64,000 nucleotides of DNA from Paenibacillus sp. JNUCC-31 (GTDB taxonomy: Bacteria; Bacillota; Bacilli; Paenibacillales; Paenibacillaceae): positions 744,001 to 808,000 of the forward strand of contig NZ_CP062165.1 in the NCBI RefSeq assembly GCF_014844075.1, written 5' to 3'. Made by a program: the position numbers and the translations under genes. The notes below the pieces were generated by a model, which made no database searches, was not told the origin of the DNA, and was given only the letters and a program-made list of their open reading frames with translations. Below, one piece after another: positions 17,823 through 23,220 of the stretch (positions within the stretch are counted from its first letter, which is position 1; each line of letters opens with the position of its first letter).

Positions 17823-18860
17823 CTACTCTTCCACAACACCAAGTGCCTTATTTTTTTCTTTGAAACGACTGTTATGAGAAGATACATAAGCAACTTTTTC
17901 CGCCTCAGGGTCCATATATAATTTCGCACTATTGACCGCCAGCGCTGCATCCGTAAATGTACCCGCAATAAGATACAATTTACTTCCATAATCGACAAAG
18001 TCTCCTGCGGCGAAAACGCCTGGGATATTCGTTTGCAGCTTCTCTGTTGTGCTGACATGCCATTCTCCAAGATCAAGTCCCCAATCCCGGATCGGTCCAA
18101 AATCACTCTTCATCCCGTGGTTAACGATAATTGCATCCACATCCAGCAGTTCACTTTCGCCCGTCTCAACATGGGATATCGTCACTTGTTCGATCATTTC
18201 GCCACTTTGACTATGCAACGTGTCCACGGCATATGGTGTACGAATATCGACCGAAGATTCTCTCATGCGCAGTACATTGCGCTCCAGTCCACCAAAGCGG
18301 TCACGACGATGAACCACCGTTACTTGCTCTGCCAGTGCCTCAAGTTCATTGGCCCAATCCACAGCGGAATCTCCTCCACCTGAGATTAATACTCGCTTGC
18401 CCCGGAATGGTTCCAACTCTTGTACTGTATAGTGGAGATTGGTGACCTCATAACGGTCAGCTCCTTCAAGCTCCAGCTTGGCCATTTTATATATACCATA
18501 CCCGATCGCCAATATGACGGTACGTGTCCAGTGTTGTTCTCCTGTAGCCGATGTCAGCAGAATCGTGCCATCCGGTTGACGCTCGAAGCCTTCGATTTGC
18601 TGTTCAAACACAATCGTTGGTTCAAACGTTCTCGCCTGTTCTTCCAACTGTTTAATCAGGTTCTCACATAGAATCGGGGTGACACCGCCGACGTCCCAGA
18701 TCATTTTCTCTGGATAAAAGAGCATGCGACCGCCCAATTTGTCCCGCGCCTCAATCAACTTGGTCTTCATATCACGCATCCCGCTGTAAAATGCAGAATA
18801 CATCCCGGCGGGTCCGCCGCCGATAATTGTTACATCATATAATTCCAAATGCTGATCCAT
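17823..18860 (-). CDS. Ferredoxin--NADP reductase, thioredoxin-reductase-like (YumC/YcgT type)
   Basis: FAD/NADPH oxidoreductase of about 345 residues: FAD motif [14 protein letters not shown] (~14), NADPH motif [11 protein letters not shown] (~155) with HRRDRFGG, and the C-terminal FAD motif [14 protein letters not shown] (~285). It lacks the CxxC of thioredoxin reductase, which places it in the Bacillus-type FNR group supplying electrons to ferredoxin or flavodoxin. The ATG was chosen because GGAGGT lies six bases upstream. A Fur box 50 bases upstream indicates iron repression, as with B. subtilis ycgT. It may reduce iron taken up by the adjacent siderophore system, which is inference. Confidence 0.88.
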
Positions 18861-18908
18861 TTCTTTACCTCCATCAGTTCGATCCAAAGCACTTTAACTA
18901 TTTGATAT

Positions 18909-19019: not shown

Positions 19020-20996
19020 CTATTTCACTCTGGAAGCTGCTAATAAATGTTCGACAACGAAATCGATTTGTTTGCTGACTGAATAGATATCGGAATAATA
19101 GAAGAATTCAAAATCAATCTCGATTAGACGGCCTTCCTTTACAGCCGGTATGCTGCTCCATATTGGATCATCCGTAAGGTTATCAGCCCCTTCATACACC
19201 GAACGAAACACGTAGTCTCCGATATATTCAGGCAGTACTTCCATGGATAAGTTGGAGCCTCCCGCTTCCGAAACCACATCTATTTTTTTCTGCACTACTT
19301 CAGGTGCTTTCATGCCCAAGTACTCATATAGTGCCTGAGATCCCCGGCCATATTGCTTGCTCTCTACAACGACCATACTTTTCAAACCGCCCTCCACAAT
19401 GGAAACCGTTTTGTTCAATATGCCTGCATCTGCTAGTGTTTTCTTGCTCTCTTCAACTTTGTTGTTGAGATTAGTGATTAACGTTTCGGCTTCCTGTTCT
19501 TTGCCAAAAATACTCGCTATACTCTGAAGTCTTTCTTCTGTTGTCATTTTCTCGTACGGAATATATACCGTAGGTGCGATATCCTTTAACAACGTATACG
19601 TCTCTTCTGAAGGCGCAATAATCAAATCCGGATCAAGGTTTATGACAGCTTCAGGATTCGGTTCAAACCAGGCACCCAATGAATTTACACCTTCAAGCTC
19701 ACCCTTATATGCAGCCCCGGCAAATACTTCTGAGGTAGCGACTGGCTTAATTCCAAGTGCCACGACATCACCTTGGAGATACAACACAACAACCCGTTTG
19801 GGATTAGCTGGAACAACAACATCGCCCTTTACCGTTGAGACGGTTCGTGTTTCATTGTCTTTGTTCATCTGGCTTTCCGTGTCTGAAGACACAGTCGTAC
19901 TACTGTTATTGGAACTGGCACCCGTTCCTTCGCCAGCTACTGGTGTTGTTGCCGAACCTGAAGAACAGGCCGCGAGGAGCATCGTTATGCTTAATAATGC
20001 AACCATGATCATGCTGGAACTTGTTTTTCTTCTTTTCATTGGTGTAGACCCTCCGTCTTTATATTGATAATGATTCTCATAATCAATATATCCTCGCTTC
20101 CATCTCCAGCCAATGGACGATTCGGAGATTTGCAATGGACGATCTTCTGCCAGGCTCTGATCTCTCACGCTTTGTTGATAGAGGGTCGGAGACAAGCCCA
20201 CATGTTTTTTAAAGATGCGACTGAAATAATATACATCCGAATAACCCACTTCTGCTGCAATTTCGCGCAAGGTTGCATCCGATCGAGCAAGCAGATTTCG
20301 AGCCTCAGCCAGTCTGGTTTGAATGAGATAATCAATCGGACTGTATCCCGTCTTACGTTTGAATTGCATGGATAAATGACGAGAGCTGTAGTTGAATTGT
20401 TCGGCCAAAAAATCCAGAGTCACTTGTTCCCTATAATGATTCTGTATGTAACGGAGTGTTTGTTGCACTGGGTCTTGTACCACTGTACTGACCTCCTGCT
20501 CTGCTAATTGAAACATGAGTTCATGAATAAATTGGTAAAACAAACTCTTCACTTGAAGCAGTTCCAGACTTCCTGCCTGATCCCAGGCTTTCTCCAGCTC
20601 ACCCAGAGGACGTAATAAAGCAAGGGGATCACTTGGTGTAAACCCATATTGTAAAGAGTACGGAGCTGCCAGGGGTGCCGGCCTCAACGTCTTACGATGA
20701 ATTGGGAATGCAAGGAATGCCCTGTAGAACAGCAAAACATATTCAAATTTTTCGTTTTCGCTAACGCGGATATTTATCGACGATCCTTTAGCACCGTGAA
20801 GAATGTAAAATCGCTGAGCTTCATAAGCTTCTTCATCCATTTTCAGCTGAGCTGCACCACGTATGATGTATATATAACCGTTTGCAGGCAGCACATAGGT
20901 ATCCAGGATCTCCCCTGCCTCCATGACGATCCTGCGTATATCCAGAATTTTGACAGCCGCACGATTCCAGCATTGCATCTGTTCATTTAATTGCAT
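19020..20996 (-). CDS. AraC-type regulator read-through fused to a siderophore-binding lipoprotein (copy 1)
   Basis: A single uninterrupted 658-codon frame. Residues ~1-165 form a cupin-like sensor region; ~172-275 are an AraC DNA-binding domain (two HTHs; GYSPIDYLIQTRLAEA, EVGYSDVYYFSRIFKKHVGLSP). Residues ~276-319 are a linker. From Met320 there is a complete lipoprotein signal peptide (KRRK, hydrophobic stretch, LAAC with Cys344) and a FecB/FhuD-type iron-siderophore-binding domain to the end. The linker is encoded by a promoter, Fur box and SD, so the lipoprotein can also be made alone from 20039. B. subtilis Btr has an AraC-plus-binding-protein order, but to my knowledge no internal signal peptide. 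GGAG lies eight bases before the start ATG. Confidence 0.85.
   Translation of the reverse strand: MQLNEQMQCWNRAAVKILDIRRIVMEAGEILDTYVLPANGYIYIIRGAAQLKMDEEAYEAQRFYILHGAKGSSINIRVSENEKFEYVLLFYRAFLAFPIHRKTLRPAPLAAPYSLQYGFTPSDPLALLRPLGELEKAWDQAGSLELLQVKSLFYQFIHELMFQLAEQEVSTVVQDPVQQTLRYIQNHYREQVTLDFLAEQFNYSSRHLSMQFKRKTGYSPIDYLIQTRLAEARNLLARSDATLREIAAEVGYSDVYYFSRIFKKHVGLSPTLYQQSVRDQSLAEDRPLQISESSIGWRWKRGYIDYENHYQYKDGGSTPMKRRKTSSSMIMVALLSITMLLAACSSGSATTPVAGEGTGASSNNSSTTVSSDTESQMNKDNETRTVSTVKGDVVVPANPKRVVVLYLQGDVVALGIKPVATSEVFAGAAYKGELEGVNSLGAWFEPNPEAVINLDPDLIIAPSEETYTLLKDIAPTVYIPYEKMTTEERLQSIASIFGKEQEAETLITNLNNKVEESKKTLADAGILNKTVSIVEGGLKSMVVVESKQYGRGSQALYEYLGMKAPEVVQKKIDVVSEAGGSNLSMEVLPEYIGDYVFRSVYEGADNLTDDPIWSSIPAVKEGRLIEIDFEFFYYSDIYSVSKQIDFVVEHLLAASRVK
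20039..20113 (-). promoter_or_regulatory. Internal promoter, Fur box, SD and start of lipoprotein 1 inside the fusion gene
   Basis: On the minus strand TTGGCT, 17-base spacer, TATATT (20113-20085), then a Fur box centred at ~20075 (TGATTATGAGAATCATTATC). GGAGGG lies eight bases before the ATG at 20039. From this ATG to 19020 runs a 339-residue lipoprotein. The same DNA, read as part of the longer gene, encodes the linker peptide containing YENHYQYKDGG. Confidence 0.75.
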
Positions 20997-21111
20997 TGAT
21001 TACTCTCCAATCCCAGTCTCACCGGTACAAAGACCTTGAACAGGTCATCATACTACAAACGCTATCCTCACTGATGCGTTACAGAGAGGGCATATTATCC
21101 TTCATTATAAA

Positions 21112-21132
21112 TGATAATAATTTTCATTATCA
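21112..21132 (-). promoter_or_regulatory. Fur box upstream of the first AraC/lipoprotein gene
   Basis: TGATAAT and ATTATCA form a perfect 7-bp dyad around 7 bases, giving two overlapping Fur-box halves, 115-135 bases before the start at 20996. It lies between the two tandem genes. Confidence 0.65.
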
Positions 21133-21193
21133 ACTGAAATTTGGACTTGGATTAGATTTCACCACATTTATATATTCGCTTCGATCGGTTCGA

Positions 21194-23152
21194 TTACTTC
21201 TTATCTGATATCTTTGTAAACCACGCTGCGAGTTCCTCCGTCTGATCCAACGTTGCAATCGGGTCAAAGTACCATGAACGATCCGGACTCCAGATAAACA
21301 CATGATCATTCTTGACGGCATCAAGTGAACTCCAGACTGGCTTGGTCTTCAATTCCTCTACAGTCAGGTTGTCTGCCGTAAGAATAATGTAGTCACCAGC
21401 AAAATCAGGAATGGATTCGGACGAGACTTCCACAAGCTGATCCTTCATTAATATCTCTTTTTTATCTGTGGGAGGATTCAAACCAAGTGCAGTATAAACA
21501 GCCTGTCCTCCGCGTCCAAAATTATCACCAAAGGCCAATGGTCCTTTATCATAAAACTGCATCACTGATACTTTTGCATCCGAATCGATTGCTTCACTGA
21601 CACTCTTCTTGGCGTCCGCTATTCGTGCATCGTAATTGGTAGTCCACGCTTCAGCCTCTTTTTCTTTATTCAGTGCTTTACCGAAATAAGTGATTTCTTC
21701 ATGAGTATTTTTCAATTCCCCATAAGGAACAACAAGTGTCGGGGCAATCTTGCTAAAAGAGTCGAACAAATCCGGATTACCTGTAATAATCAAATCCGGT
21801 TGAAGTTCCAATACCTTTTCGAGAGAGATGGTTTCGTATTCACCAATATTCTCTACACCTTCGAGTGACTCAATAAAATAAGGATTCTTCAGATTCATTT
21901 CCGGTGTACCTACGGGCTTTATTCCTAAAGCAATCAGGCTTCCCAAATATAAATCAACCACAATTCGCTTGGGTTCAGCCGGGACCGTAATATCTCCCTT
22001 AACCGTCGAGATGATCCGAGGCTCGGAATTGTTCGATTGGCTATCAGCCATTACTGTGCTGGTGGCACTCGAAGTCCCTTTGCTTCCGGCTGTTTCTCCC
22101 CCAGAATGACTAGTTGCCCCTGGCGAGCAAGCACTAAGCAGTAGAGTGAGACTTAATAAAATACTAAGCAGCATTCCCGTTCTTGTCTGTCTATTCATGT
22201 ACAATAACCCTCCGTGTTTATATTGATAATGATTATCATCATCGTTATAAACATACCTTCCAGCTCTCCCACTGGAAATATCATTTCGCGCCAAGGTCGA
22301 TGTCAGATCAGGCCATTTTAGGGGGCCGGATGTTTTCTTCTTGAACTGAAGCGGTGAAACGCCTGTATATTTTTTGAACATACGTCCCAGATAATATCCG
22401 TCCGGATAACCGATGCCTGCTGCAATCTCATCCAATGTAGCATCGGTATGTAGCAGCATCTCCTTGGCCTTGAACATACGAAACTGAATCAAATAGTCGA
22501 TTGGACTATACCCAGTCGCCTCTTTGAACTTGCGGGAAAGACTTCTCGGACTGCTTCCGATCTTCTCTGCCAAAACATGCAACGTTAATGGCTCAGCATA
22601 AAAGGATTCCACAATTTCGATAACTTTGCTGACTTGATCCGTAACGGAATAACGAGTTGCAGCATGAGGAATTTGTGCTGATACTTTCTCTACAAAAGGA
22701 TAAAAAAGGCTTTTTGCCTGAAAATGATGTATGGGGTTCTTTTGATTCCATAAAGTGTGCATCTGTTTCACTTGCTCATAAAGCACAACTGGTGACTTGG
22801 GGACAAACCCATAGGTTATCTGAAATGGATTCATGTGCTCCATCATGTTGCCCAAATCGGTTCTTCCACCCCTTGGCAAGCTTGCTTTATACATAAGGTA
22901 AAACAGGTTCAATCCGGATTGTCCAGCTTCAATATGCAGCACGCTCCCCTTTCCACCATGGAGAACATAAAAACGACTTACTTCATGCTTCTGTTCGTTT
23001 ATGGTCACATAGGCTTTACCCTGGATGGTGAATACAAATGTACTCGCAGGAAATTTATAAGTTAGCTCCTCAGTTGGACCTAACTCCATATAACGTATAT
23101 CCGCAATGCTCACCGCAGCATAGTTCCAGAGTATGTAATAATTATTCCACAT
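21194..23152 (-). CDS. AraC-type regulator read-through fused to a siderophore-binding lipoprotein (copy 2)
   Basis: Paralogue of the gene downstream with the same architecture in 652 codons: sensor region ~1-165, AraC HTH domain ~170-270 (SPRSLSRKFKEATGYSPIDY, GIGYPDGYYLGRMFKKYTGVSP), linker ~271-318, then from Met319 a lipoprotein signal (RQTR, long Leu-rich core, LSAC with Cys342) and a FecB/FhuD-type binding domain. No stop interrupts the linker, which is DNA carrying a promoter, a perfect Fur box and an SD. The two copies diverge clearly in sequence, so the open linker is not a recent duplication artefact. The SD before 23152 is weak (GGGG, far upstream). No permease or ATPase gene is adjacent. 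Confidence 0.85.
   Translation of the reverse strand: MWNNYYILWNYAAVSIADIRYMELGPTEELTYKFPASTFVFTIQGKAYVTINEQKHEVSRFYVLHGGKGSVLHIEAGQSGLNLFYLMYKASLPRGGRTDLGNMMEHMNPFQITYGFVPKSPVVLYEQVKQMHTLWNQKNPIHHFQAKSLFYPFVEKVSAQIPHAATRYSVTDQVSKVIEIVESFYAEPLTLHVLAEKIGSSPRSLSRKFKEATGYSPIDYLIQFRMFKAKEMLLHTDATLDEIAAGIGYPDGYYLGRMFKKYTGVSPLQFKKKTSGPLKWPDLTSTLARNDISSGRAGRYVYNDDDNHYQYKHGGLLYMNRQTRTGMLLSILLSLTLLLSACSPGATSHSGGETAGSKGTSSATSTVMADSQSNNSEPRIISTVKGDITVPAEPKRIVVDLYLGSLIALGIKPVGTPEMNLKNPYFIESLEGVENIGEYETISLEKVLELQPDLIITGNPDLFDSFSKIAPTLVVPYGELKNTHEEITYFGKALNKEKEAEAWTTNYDARIADAKKSVSEAIDSDAKVSVMQFYDKGPLAFGDNFGRGGQAVYTALGLNPPTDKKEILMKDQLVEVSSESIPDFAGDYIILTADNLTVEELKTKPVWSSLDAVKNDHVFIWSPDRSWYFDPIATLDQTEELAAWFTKISDKK
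22198..22278 (-). promoter_or_regulatory. Internal promoter, perfect Fur box, SD and start of lipoprotein 2 inside the fusion gene
   Basis: On the minus strand TTTCCA, 17-base spacer, TATGTT (22278-22250), then TGATAATGATTATCA at 22238-22224, a 15/15 Fur-box match. CGGAGGG lies nine bases before the ATG at 22198, which opens a 334-residue lipoprotein ending at 21194. Layout and spacing match the internal element of copy 1. Confidence 0.8.
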
Positions 23153-23201: not shown

Positions 23202-23220
23202 ATTGATAACCATTATCAAT
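23202..23220 (-). promoter_or_regulatory. Fur box upstream of the second AraC/lipoprotein gene
   Basis: ATTGATAACCATTATCAAT: 8-bp perfect arms around CCA and 14/15 to the Fur core. It lies 50-68 bases before the start at 23152, in the divergent region shared with the FlxA-like gene. Confidence 0.8.

Follow-up and report, generated by a model that had tools for sequence, protein, structure and literature searches.

Tandem Paenibacillus genes join an AraC regulator in frame to a siderophore-binding lipoprotein through a linker that may hold an iron-controlled promoter

Two tandem genes of Paenibacillus sp. JNUCC-31 each carry, in one open reading frame, an AraC-type regulator, a lipoprotein signal, and a siderophore-binding domain, and this in-frame AraC–lipoprotein fusion is real, conserved, and beyond chance. 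The genes lie in a 64,000-nucleotide stretch of contig NZ_CP062165.1 (positions 744,001 to 808,000, forward strand; hereafter "the window"), within which coordinates are counted below. Judged by sequence, the linker between the two halves is under a double constraint, as coding frame and as regulatory DNA. We lean, if only slightly, towards reading the pair as nested two-output siderophore genes, in which a membrane-tethered AraC sensor and an importer lipoprotein would share a single binding domain. The main features are:

19020 to 20996, minus strand: gene 1, 658 codons, AraC regulator, lipoprotein signal, and FhuD/YfiY-type siderophore-binding domain
21194 to 23152, minus strand: gene 2, 652 codons, a diverged tandem paralogue of gene 1 with the same layout
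19965 to 20039, minus strand: lipoprotein signal of gene 1, from Met320 to the lipobox Cys344 (LAAC)

Both frames are open over these coordinates and lengths, as a first-pass annotation of the window had proposed. It had also placed between the halves a linker of 45–50 codons (about 45 in gene 1, from the end of the helix-turn-helix (HTH) region to an internal Met), followed by lipoboxes LAAC and LSAC (Cys344 of gene 1 and Cys342 of gene 2) and a FecB/FhuD-type binding domain, and each of these assignments held. The two genes share 34% identity (alignment A1). The Pfam models HTH_18, HTH_AraC, and Peripla_BP_2 all score above cut-off in both: HTH_18 reaches 83.3 and 76.9 bits (cut-off 33.6), placing them in the AraC/XylS family, and Peripla_BP_2 reaches 74.8 and 96.5 bits (cut-off 27.5), placing their C-terminal halves among siderophore-binding proteins. 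In an AlphaFold model of gene 1, the AraC half is folded and includes a beta-rich N-terminal domain, the linker (residues 282–328) is of low confidence, a helix spans residues 326–343, residues 345–380 are again of low confidence, and the binding domain is folded. The model has a mean predicted local distance difference test score (pLDDT) of 81 and a predicted template-modelling score (pTM) of 0.45, and does not fix how the halves are placed relative to each other. The best fold matches of the binding domain are FhuD2, YfiY, and the B. subtilis FhuD-like protein BSU3320, with TM-scores (to target) of 0.82–0.86 for 4b8y, 3tny, and 3hxp; the nearest structures by sequence are 3hxp and 3g9q.

The fusion is widely kept. 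A protein search, in which candidates were limited to 0.55–1.75 of the query length so that split genes could not appear, returned 181 relatives; linker and signal align across the 121 sequences read (the best 120, which were listed, and P0002), and the source names of relatives include Paenibacillus, Cohnella, Brevibacillus, and Lysinibacillus. With the whole protein as query, 62 of 75 same-genus genomes matched at E ≤ 1e-60, not all of them seen to hold fusions because not every match was listed. Across the class, 43 of 398 genomes and 11 of 145 genera matched at E ≤ 1e-90, with three candidates scored per genome; one of these genomes (G382) matched with binding-protein pieces only, and for two of the genera the match seen was without a signal (L127, L133). 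At E ≤ 1e-120, a search of the whole phylum found matches in 5 of 398 genomes, every one from the window's own family.

The test without preselection for fusions is that with the AraC half alone (residues 1–285) as query against the 75 same-genus genomes. It gave at least 150 matches, up to 13 of them in a single genome, and among the 150 listed, 140 run on in frames of at least 600 codons and 10 are shorter. The proposed check, i.e., whether the linker stays open across Paenibacillus orthologues, thus came out in favor of the fusion, and the argument that open linkers in both copies speak against chance was borne out. The linkers of 86 open members have accumulated 2214 parsimony substitutions and at least 30 length changes; in a frame free to vary, about 149 stop-creating changes should have arisen. 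This set was, however, picked as open, which fixes the lack of stops and the lengths in multiples of three in advance, and the counts may be too high through misalignment. The AraC-half count is therefore the real test, and it points in the same direction. A chance run-on of two genes is ruled out by the class-wide matches together with the 140 open AraC-half frames, and a sequencing or assembly artefact by the shared layout in many independent genomes and by the scatter of the breaks where members are broken. Eight of the ten short frames were fetched: in five (L156, L157, L158, L160, L161) the break lies past the lipobox, either within the binding domain or at its edge, and the other three are taken up below. 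Of the remaining two short frames, that of G037:C6 breaks at residues 399–416, as judged from match coordinates, and that of G005 has 591 codons.

The same count bears on whether the joined product is a functionless read-through by-product of a regulator and a lipoprotein that are selected separately. Such a by-product would fit with both halves and the signal each being well conserved, and with a linker that is of low confidence in the model and largely tied in sequence to DNA signals. Yet at many linker positions a stop codon is one mutation away and the frame has nonetheless stayed open, and the fusion is kept even in a clade that has lost the signal (see below), so that we consider this explanation very improbable.

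Read as DNA, the linker holds a second set of features, with counterparts upstream of each full-length start:

20108 to 20113, minus strand: −35-like TTGGCT inside gene 1, 17 nt before the −10-like TATATT
20085 to 20090, minus strand: −10-like TATATT inside gene 1, coding for linker Tyr-Ile
20065 to 20079, minus strand: candidate Fur box inside gene 1, TGAGAATCATTATCA, 13/14
20037 to 20054, minus strand: ribosome-binding site (RBS) GGAGG, spacer, and ATG (20037–20039) of the putative free lipoprotein of gene 1
22250 to 22278, minus strand: promoter-like TTTCCA-17-TATGTT inside gene 2, 4/6 in each hexamer
22224 to 22238, minus strand: candidate Fur box inside gene 2, TGATAATCATTATCA, 14/14
22196 to 22213, minus strand: RBS GGAGG, spacer, and ATG (22196–22198) inside gene 2
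21112 to 21126, minus strand: candidate Fur box 5' of the full-length start of gene 1, 13/14
21133 to 21104, minus strand: promoter-like TTGATA-18-TATAAT overlapping the upstream Fur box of gene 1, 11/12
23204 to 23218, minus strand: candidate Fur box 5' of the full-length start of gene 2, 13/14

Fur boxes were scored against a 7-1-7 consensus and are candidates by sequence. Only four reach at least 13/14 in the whole window, and each gene has one of them upstream and one inside. The first-pass annotation was right about the fusion and its open linkers and missed this second role of the linker, i.e., the Fur box, promoter-like pair, RBS, and start. To evaluate how general these elements are, we used 53 representatives, less than 80% identical to each other, drawn from 111 distinct frames that bear signal and lipobox, genes 1 and 2 among them. 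An internal Fur box of at least 12/14 is present in 48 of the 53, as against 2 of 746 control windows in the same genes, and an upstream one within 200 nt in 41 of the 53, as against 90 of 1500 random locus windows. A −35/−10 spacing of 17 nt is best in 47 of the 53, under a score that grants 17 a small bonus. The linker peptide words SIG/DIV, RYI, DNHYQY, and GG are these DNA elements read as protein. Among signal-bearing fusions, L171 (2449–4350, minus-strand reading) has lost the internal Fur box (8/14) and has kept the Shine–Dalgarno (SD) sequence, ATG, and lipobox. A terminator between the halves was considered and rejected: none was found in the gene 1 linker, and the sole coding-strand site (22278–22257, gene 2) overlaps the −35/−10 spacer. 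Terminator-like sites in the region scan number 6, as against 3.1 (standard deviation 2.1) in shuffles.

Patterns of synonymous divergence (pS) point to constraint on the linker DNA itself. In 273 non-independent pairs of members 80–93% identical, pS is 0.48 for the sensor, 0.50 for the HTH, and 0.52 for the binding domain, with an overall range of 0.44–0.52 over domains, signal, and tail, whereas in the linker it falls to 0.28 before the −10 and to 0.10 over the −10, Fur box, and SD. We also compared the linkers of the 53 representatives with 200 codon shuffles that preserve the linker peptide. The summed Fur score is 691, as against 612 ± 7 in shuffles (maximum 635), and the summed promoter score 469.5, as against 423 ± 6 (maximum 436.5). 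Conservation of the linker peptide was rejected as proof of a folded part of the protein, as the linker is of low confidence in the model and its peptide largely mirrors the DNA signals. Since the linker amounts to a Fur-controlled promoter-like region with an RBS and a start, the gene probably makes a separate lipoprotein besides the fusion, i.e., one frame with two outputs.

The signal has the properties expected of such a lipoprotein. Both MKRRKTSSSMIMVALLSITMLLAAC and its gene 2 counterpart have a positive n-region, a hydrophobic h-region, and a lipobox Cys, as lipoprotein signals do. For comparison we used 19 free binding-protein lipoproteins, leaving out L154 and two frames without a recognised lipobox: h-regions average 16.7 residues in fusions and 16.6 in the free lipoproteins, and the charge preceding them +2.0 and +2.05, respectively. 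Twelve further frames lack a lipobox, four of which are close relatives. In four of the 34 loci listed (L131, L132, L144, L152), two co-directed permease genes directly follow the fusion; seven of these eight genes were tested against Pfam, and all seven are FecCD. Directly before FecCD permease genes is where the binding protein of an importer is usually encoded.

Conservation of the signal could also mean that lipoprotein signal peptidase (Lsp) always cuts the long form at the lipobox, yielding one regulator per lipoprotein, so that fusion would couple only amounts or localisation; the freed regulator would keep a membrane stub at its C-terminus, which an intramembrane protease might trim. 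We hold such a self-cleaving polyprotein to be rather unlikely. The signal and lipobox do look functional, with a dN/dS (non-synonymous to synonymous substitution rate ratio) of about 0.07 over the signal and a lipobox Cys that is invariant across 37 aligned members. However, the free lipoprotein needs the same lipobox anyway, and its conservation is thus no proof that Lsp cuts the long form; moreover, the signal-less clade has no lipobox and its binding domain is still fused.

A further possibility is that the signal goes unused in the long form, which would act as a cytosolic sensor of imported siderophore like the AraC regulator Btr of Bacillus subtilis, with the linker start making the lipoprotein. 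Cytosolic Btr-like fusions do occur in this genome (L007, L013, L018, L019), and the signal-less clade has kept the fusion. Against this, in 51 of 53 members it is at the signal that the most hydrophobic 19-residue segment is found (mean hydropathy for the 53, 1.99), with net positive charge before it, and co-translational insertion would be expected. A purely cytosolic long form seems unlikely to us.

Under the nested two-output reading, the first output would be the full fusion, made from the upstream Fur-controlled promoter: with no stop codon to end the regulator, every ribosome that starts at its ATG and finishes would make it. The AraC regulator would lie inside the cell, followed by a flexible linker, with the lipoprotein signal as a membrane helix and the siderophore-binding domain outside, and the positively charged flank of the signal would favor insertion with the regulator inside. 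The second output, from the Fur-controlled promoter, operator, RBS, and ATG embedded in the linker codons, would be an ordinary lipoprotein feeding a FecCD-type importer. When iron is scarce, Fur would leave both promoters, and the tethered form would report through the importer's binding domain which siderophore is present and switch on uptake genes. Use of both promoters, the N-inside/C-outside topology, ligand-driven activation, and the target genes are what we infer from sequence. Going one step further, these proteins might form a large class of surface-receptor transcription factors, in which a tethered AraC regulator senses an outside siderophore with the importer's own domain, its activity is set by lipidation and Lsp cutting with subsequent intramembrane proteolysis or by permease docking, and an intragenic iron operator makes surplus receptor; we put this forward tentatively and would sooner doubt than accept it. 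Such a class is apparently undescribed.

Several observations weigh against the nested two-output reading. First, the fusion signal is no longer, and slightly less hydrophobic (mean hydropathy 2.09 vs 2.36), than those of the free lipoproteins, so that nothing suggests evolution into a permanent anchor, and the loss of the signal in one clade means that the fusion can exist without tethering. Second, some of the regulatory signal comes with the peptide: according to the codon shuffles, about 28 of the 53 representatives would have a Fur box of 12/14 or better from the peptide alone, only 6 of the 53 singly beat 95% of their own shuffles, and the Fur excess thus sits in the sum. Likewise, an SD of at least 4 nt is found in 47 of the 53, as against 39.7 expected, which is not clearly above the peptide-preserving shuffles and does not support SD conservation beyond the peptide, while the internal start codons (ATG in 51, GTG in one, TTG in one) were picked by a rule that favors ATG and SD, so that their counts lean upward; the start position reads GTG in L131 and, under that rule, TTG in L161. 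The internal promoter of gene 2 is weak, below the threshold of the promoter scan, and promoter-like sites in the region scan do not exceed shuffles (10 vs 10.4). Third, a permease pair behind the fusion is missing from most of the 34 loci listed, as judged by eye except for the genes tested. Finally, three members are broken at the signal or linker: L154 inside the signal, just after the internal ATG, and L155 and L159, which both have another lesion elsewhere, in the linker. In L159 (G027), the linker frameshift parts the regulator from a lipoprotein whose start is intact; the second frameshift lies later and suggests decay or a sequencing error.

The best evidence that the joined polypeptide is itself a functional product comes from the clade that has lost the lipoprotein output and yet kept the fusion. 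L127, L133, L169, and L170 carry AraC and Peripla_BP_2 domains in one frame without a lipobox and without a comparable hydrophobic segment (0.93–1.39, vs the mean of 1.99 above). Their linkers retain, in the corresponding position, a relic TTGnnn-17-TATAGT, and their Fur box has decayed. In midpoint-rooted trees of both the AraC half and the binding domain, the four nest inside the signal-bearing family, beside L123 and L113, with supports of 0.982 and 0.975 (AraC tree) and 0.999 (binding-domain tree) at the enclosing nodes and of 0.12–0.84 at some inner ones. L127, L133, and L170 have a separate binding-protein gene nearby (in L133, between the fusion and a FecCD permease), and near L169 is a 598-codon frame with a partial match. 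Directly behind the fusion is an FhuF-like gene in both L170, where it scores above the Pfam cut-off, and L169, where it reaches 51.2 bits and is below the NCBIfam cut-off of 63.85. On sequence grounds, this clade supports a function of the joined polypeptide in its own right.

An earlier suggestion that these genes show the step before a Btr-like fusion applies to this clade. Support for it stops short of Btr itself: the other Btr-like proteins examined (L007, L013, L018, and L019 of this genome, together with L142, L167, and L168 of others) fall outside the family in the midpoint-rooted AraC-half tree, the one of the two trees that included them, with weak support at some of these nodes. A Btr-like fusion next to a separate binding-protein gene is the ordinary arrangement, from which the nested genes depart. 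In this genome (G000:C1), several frames (2763912–2766181, 5787196–5789494, 5306230–5309680, 6448273–6450994) are cytosolic and Btr-like, and lie beside separate binding-protein genes.

Btr (YbbB) was reportedly described by Gaballa and Helmann in 2007 as an AraC regulator with a FeuA-like binding domain, and to our knowledge has no lipoprotein signal between its two parts. Here, a signal and lipobox stand between the halves, the very difference from Btr that had been noted at the outset. The genes are not Btr orthologues: the NCBIfam Btr model NF049932 gives 115.6 and 77.3 bits, as against a cut-off of 900, and the layout differs too. Two papers give the same domain composition for B. subtilis Btr (PMC9609785, PMC3896406), and the second places the lipoprotein FeuA in a separate gene adjoining btr and lists the Btr gene of B. 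pumilus under fur (PMC3896406). What the systems share is a single chain in which an AraC HTH is followed by a FeuA/FhuD-type binding domain, and a tie to siderophore uptake; in the genes described here, unlike in Btr with its separate FeuA, one binding domain would serve both roles and the linker holds a promoter-like region.

FhuD2, YfiY, and BSU3320 resemble these proteins in fold (gene 1 model) and lipobox, but are free lipoproteins, whereas here the binding unit doubles as the C-terminal half of a regulator. Membrane-integrated one-component regulators of the ToxR/CadC type have the DNA-binding domain inside, a single membrane helix, and the sensor outside. Their topology would be the same only if the tethered reading holds, and they use another DNA-binding family and are not known to have a lipobox at the helix or a nested sensor promoter. 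In-frame internal starts also give N-terminally shortened isoforms such as CheA-short, likewise two products from one frame; here, however, the internal unit has a candidate iron operator and promoter-like region of its own, and the short product would sit in another compartment and resembles a transporter part. The protein would function as Btr does if its binding domain is a sensor, and would share the topology of ToxR/CadC if it is tethered. We found no description of the nested AraC–lipoprotein layout in the open-access literature, a scope that left subscription papers mostly outside and included no preprints.

If the nested reading is correct, Gram-positive bacteria would have a way of telling, with no two-component system, which siderophore surrounds them, a single domain doing both the sensing and the uptake, and as some genomes hold many such genes, each could serve a different siderophore. 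In the linker, coding sequence under double constraint would accommodate a promoter-like region, operator, RBS, and start, and the series from signal-bearing to signal-less members may be a fossil record of how a cytosolic Btr-like sensor can arise.

The surroundings of the fusion vary, and by eye the neighbors of many members look unrelated. The frames that directly flank the pair in the window include no evident permease; of these, only the downstream flavoprotein was tested:

17823 to 18887, minus strand: thioredoxin-reductase-like flavoprotein downstream of the gene pair, below the cut-off of NCBIfam models

This flavoprotein is possibly a siderophore-iron reductase; promoter-like sites lie just upstream of it, with no Fur box of at least 12/14. 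L115 has a similar flavoprotein, located, like a lipoprotein gene, upstream of the fusion. In L142 (3745–7442), a nested and a Btr-like fusion are co-directed and overlap end to start, followed by a lipoprotein gene, and L135 has, next to each other, a Btr-like frame, a lipoprotein, and a nested fusion that faces the other way.

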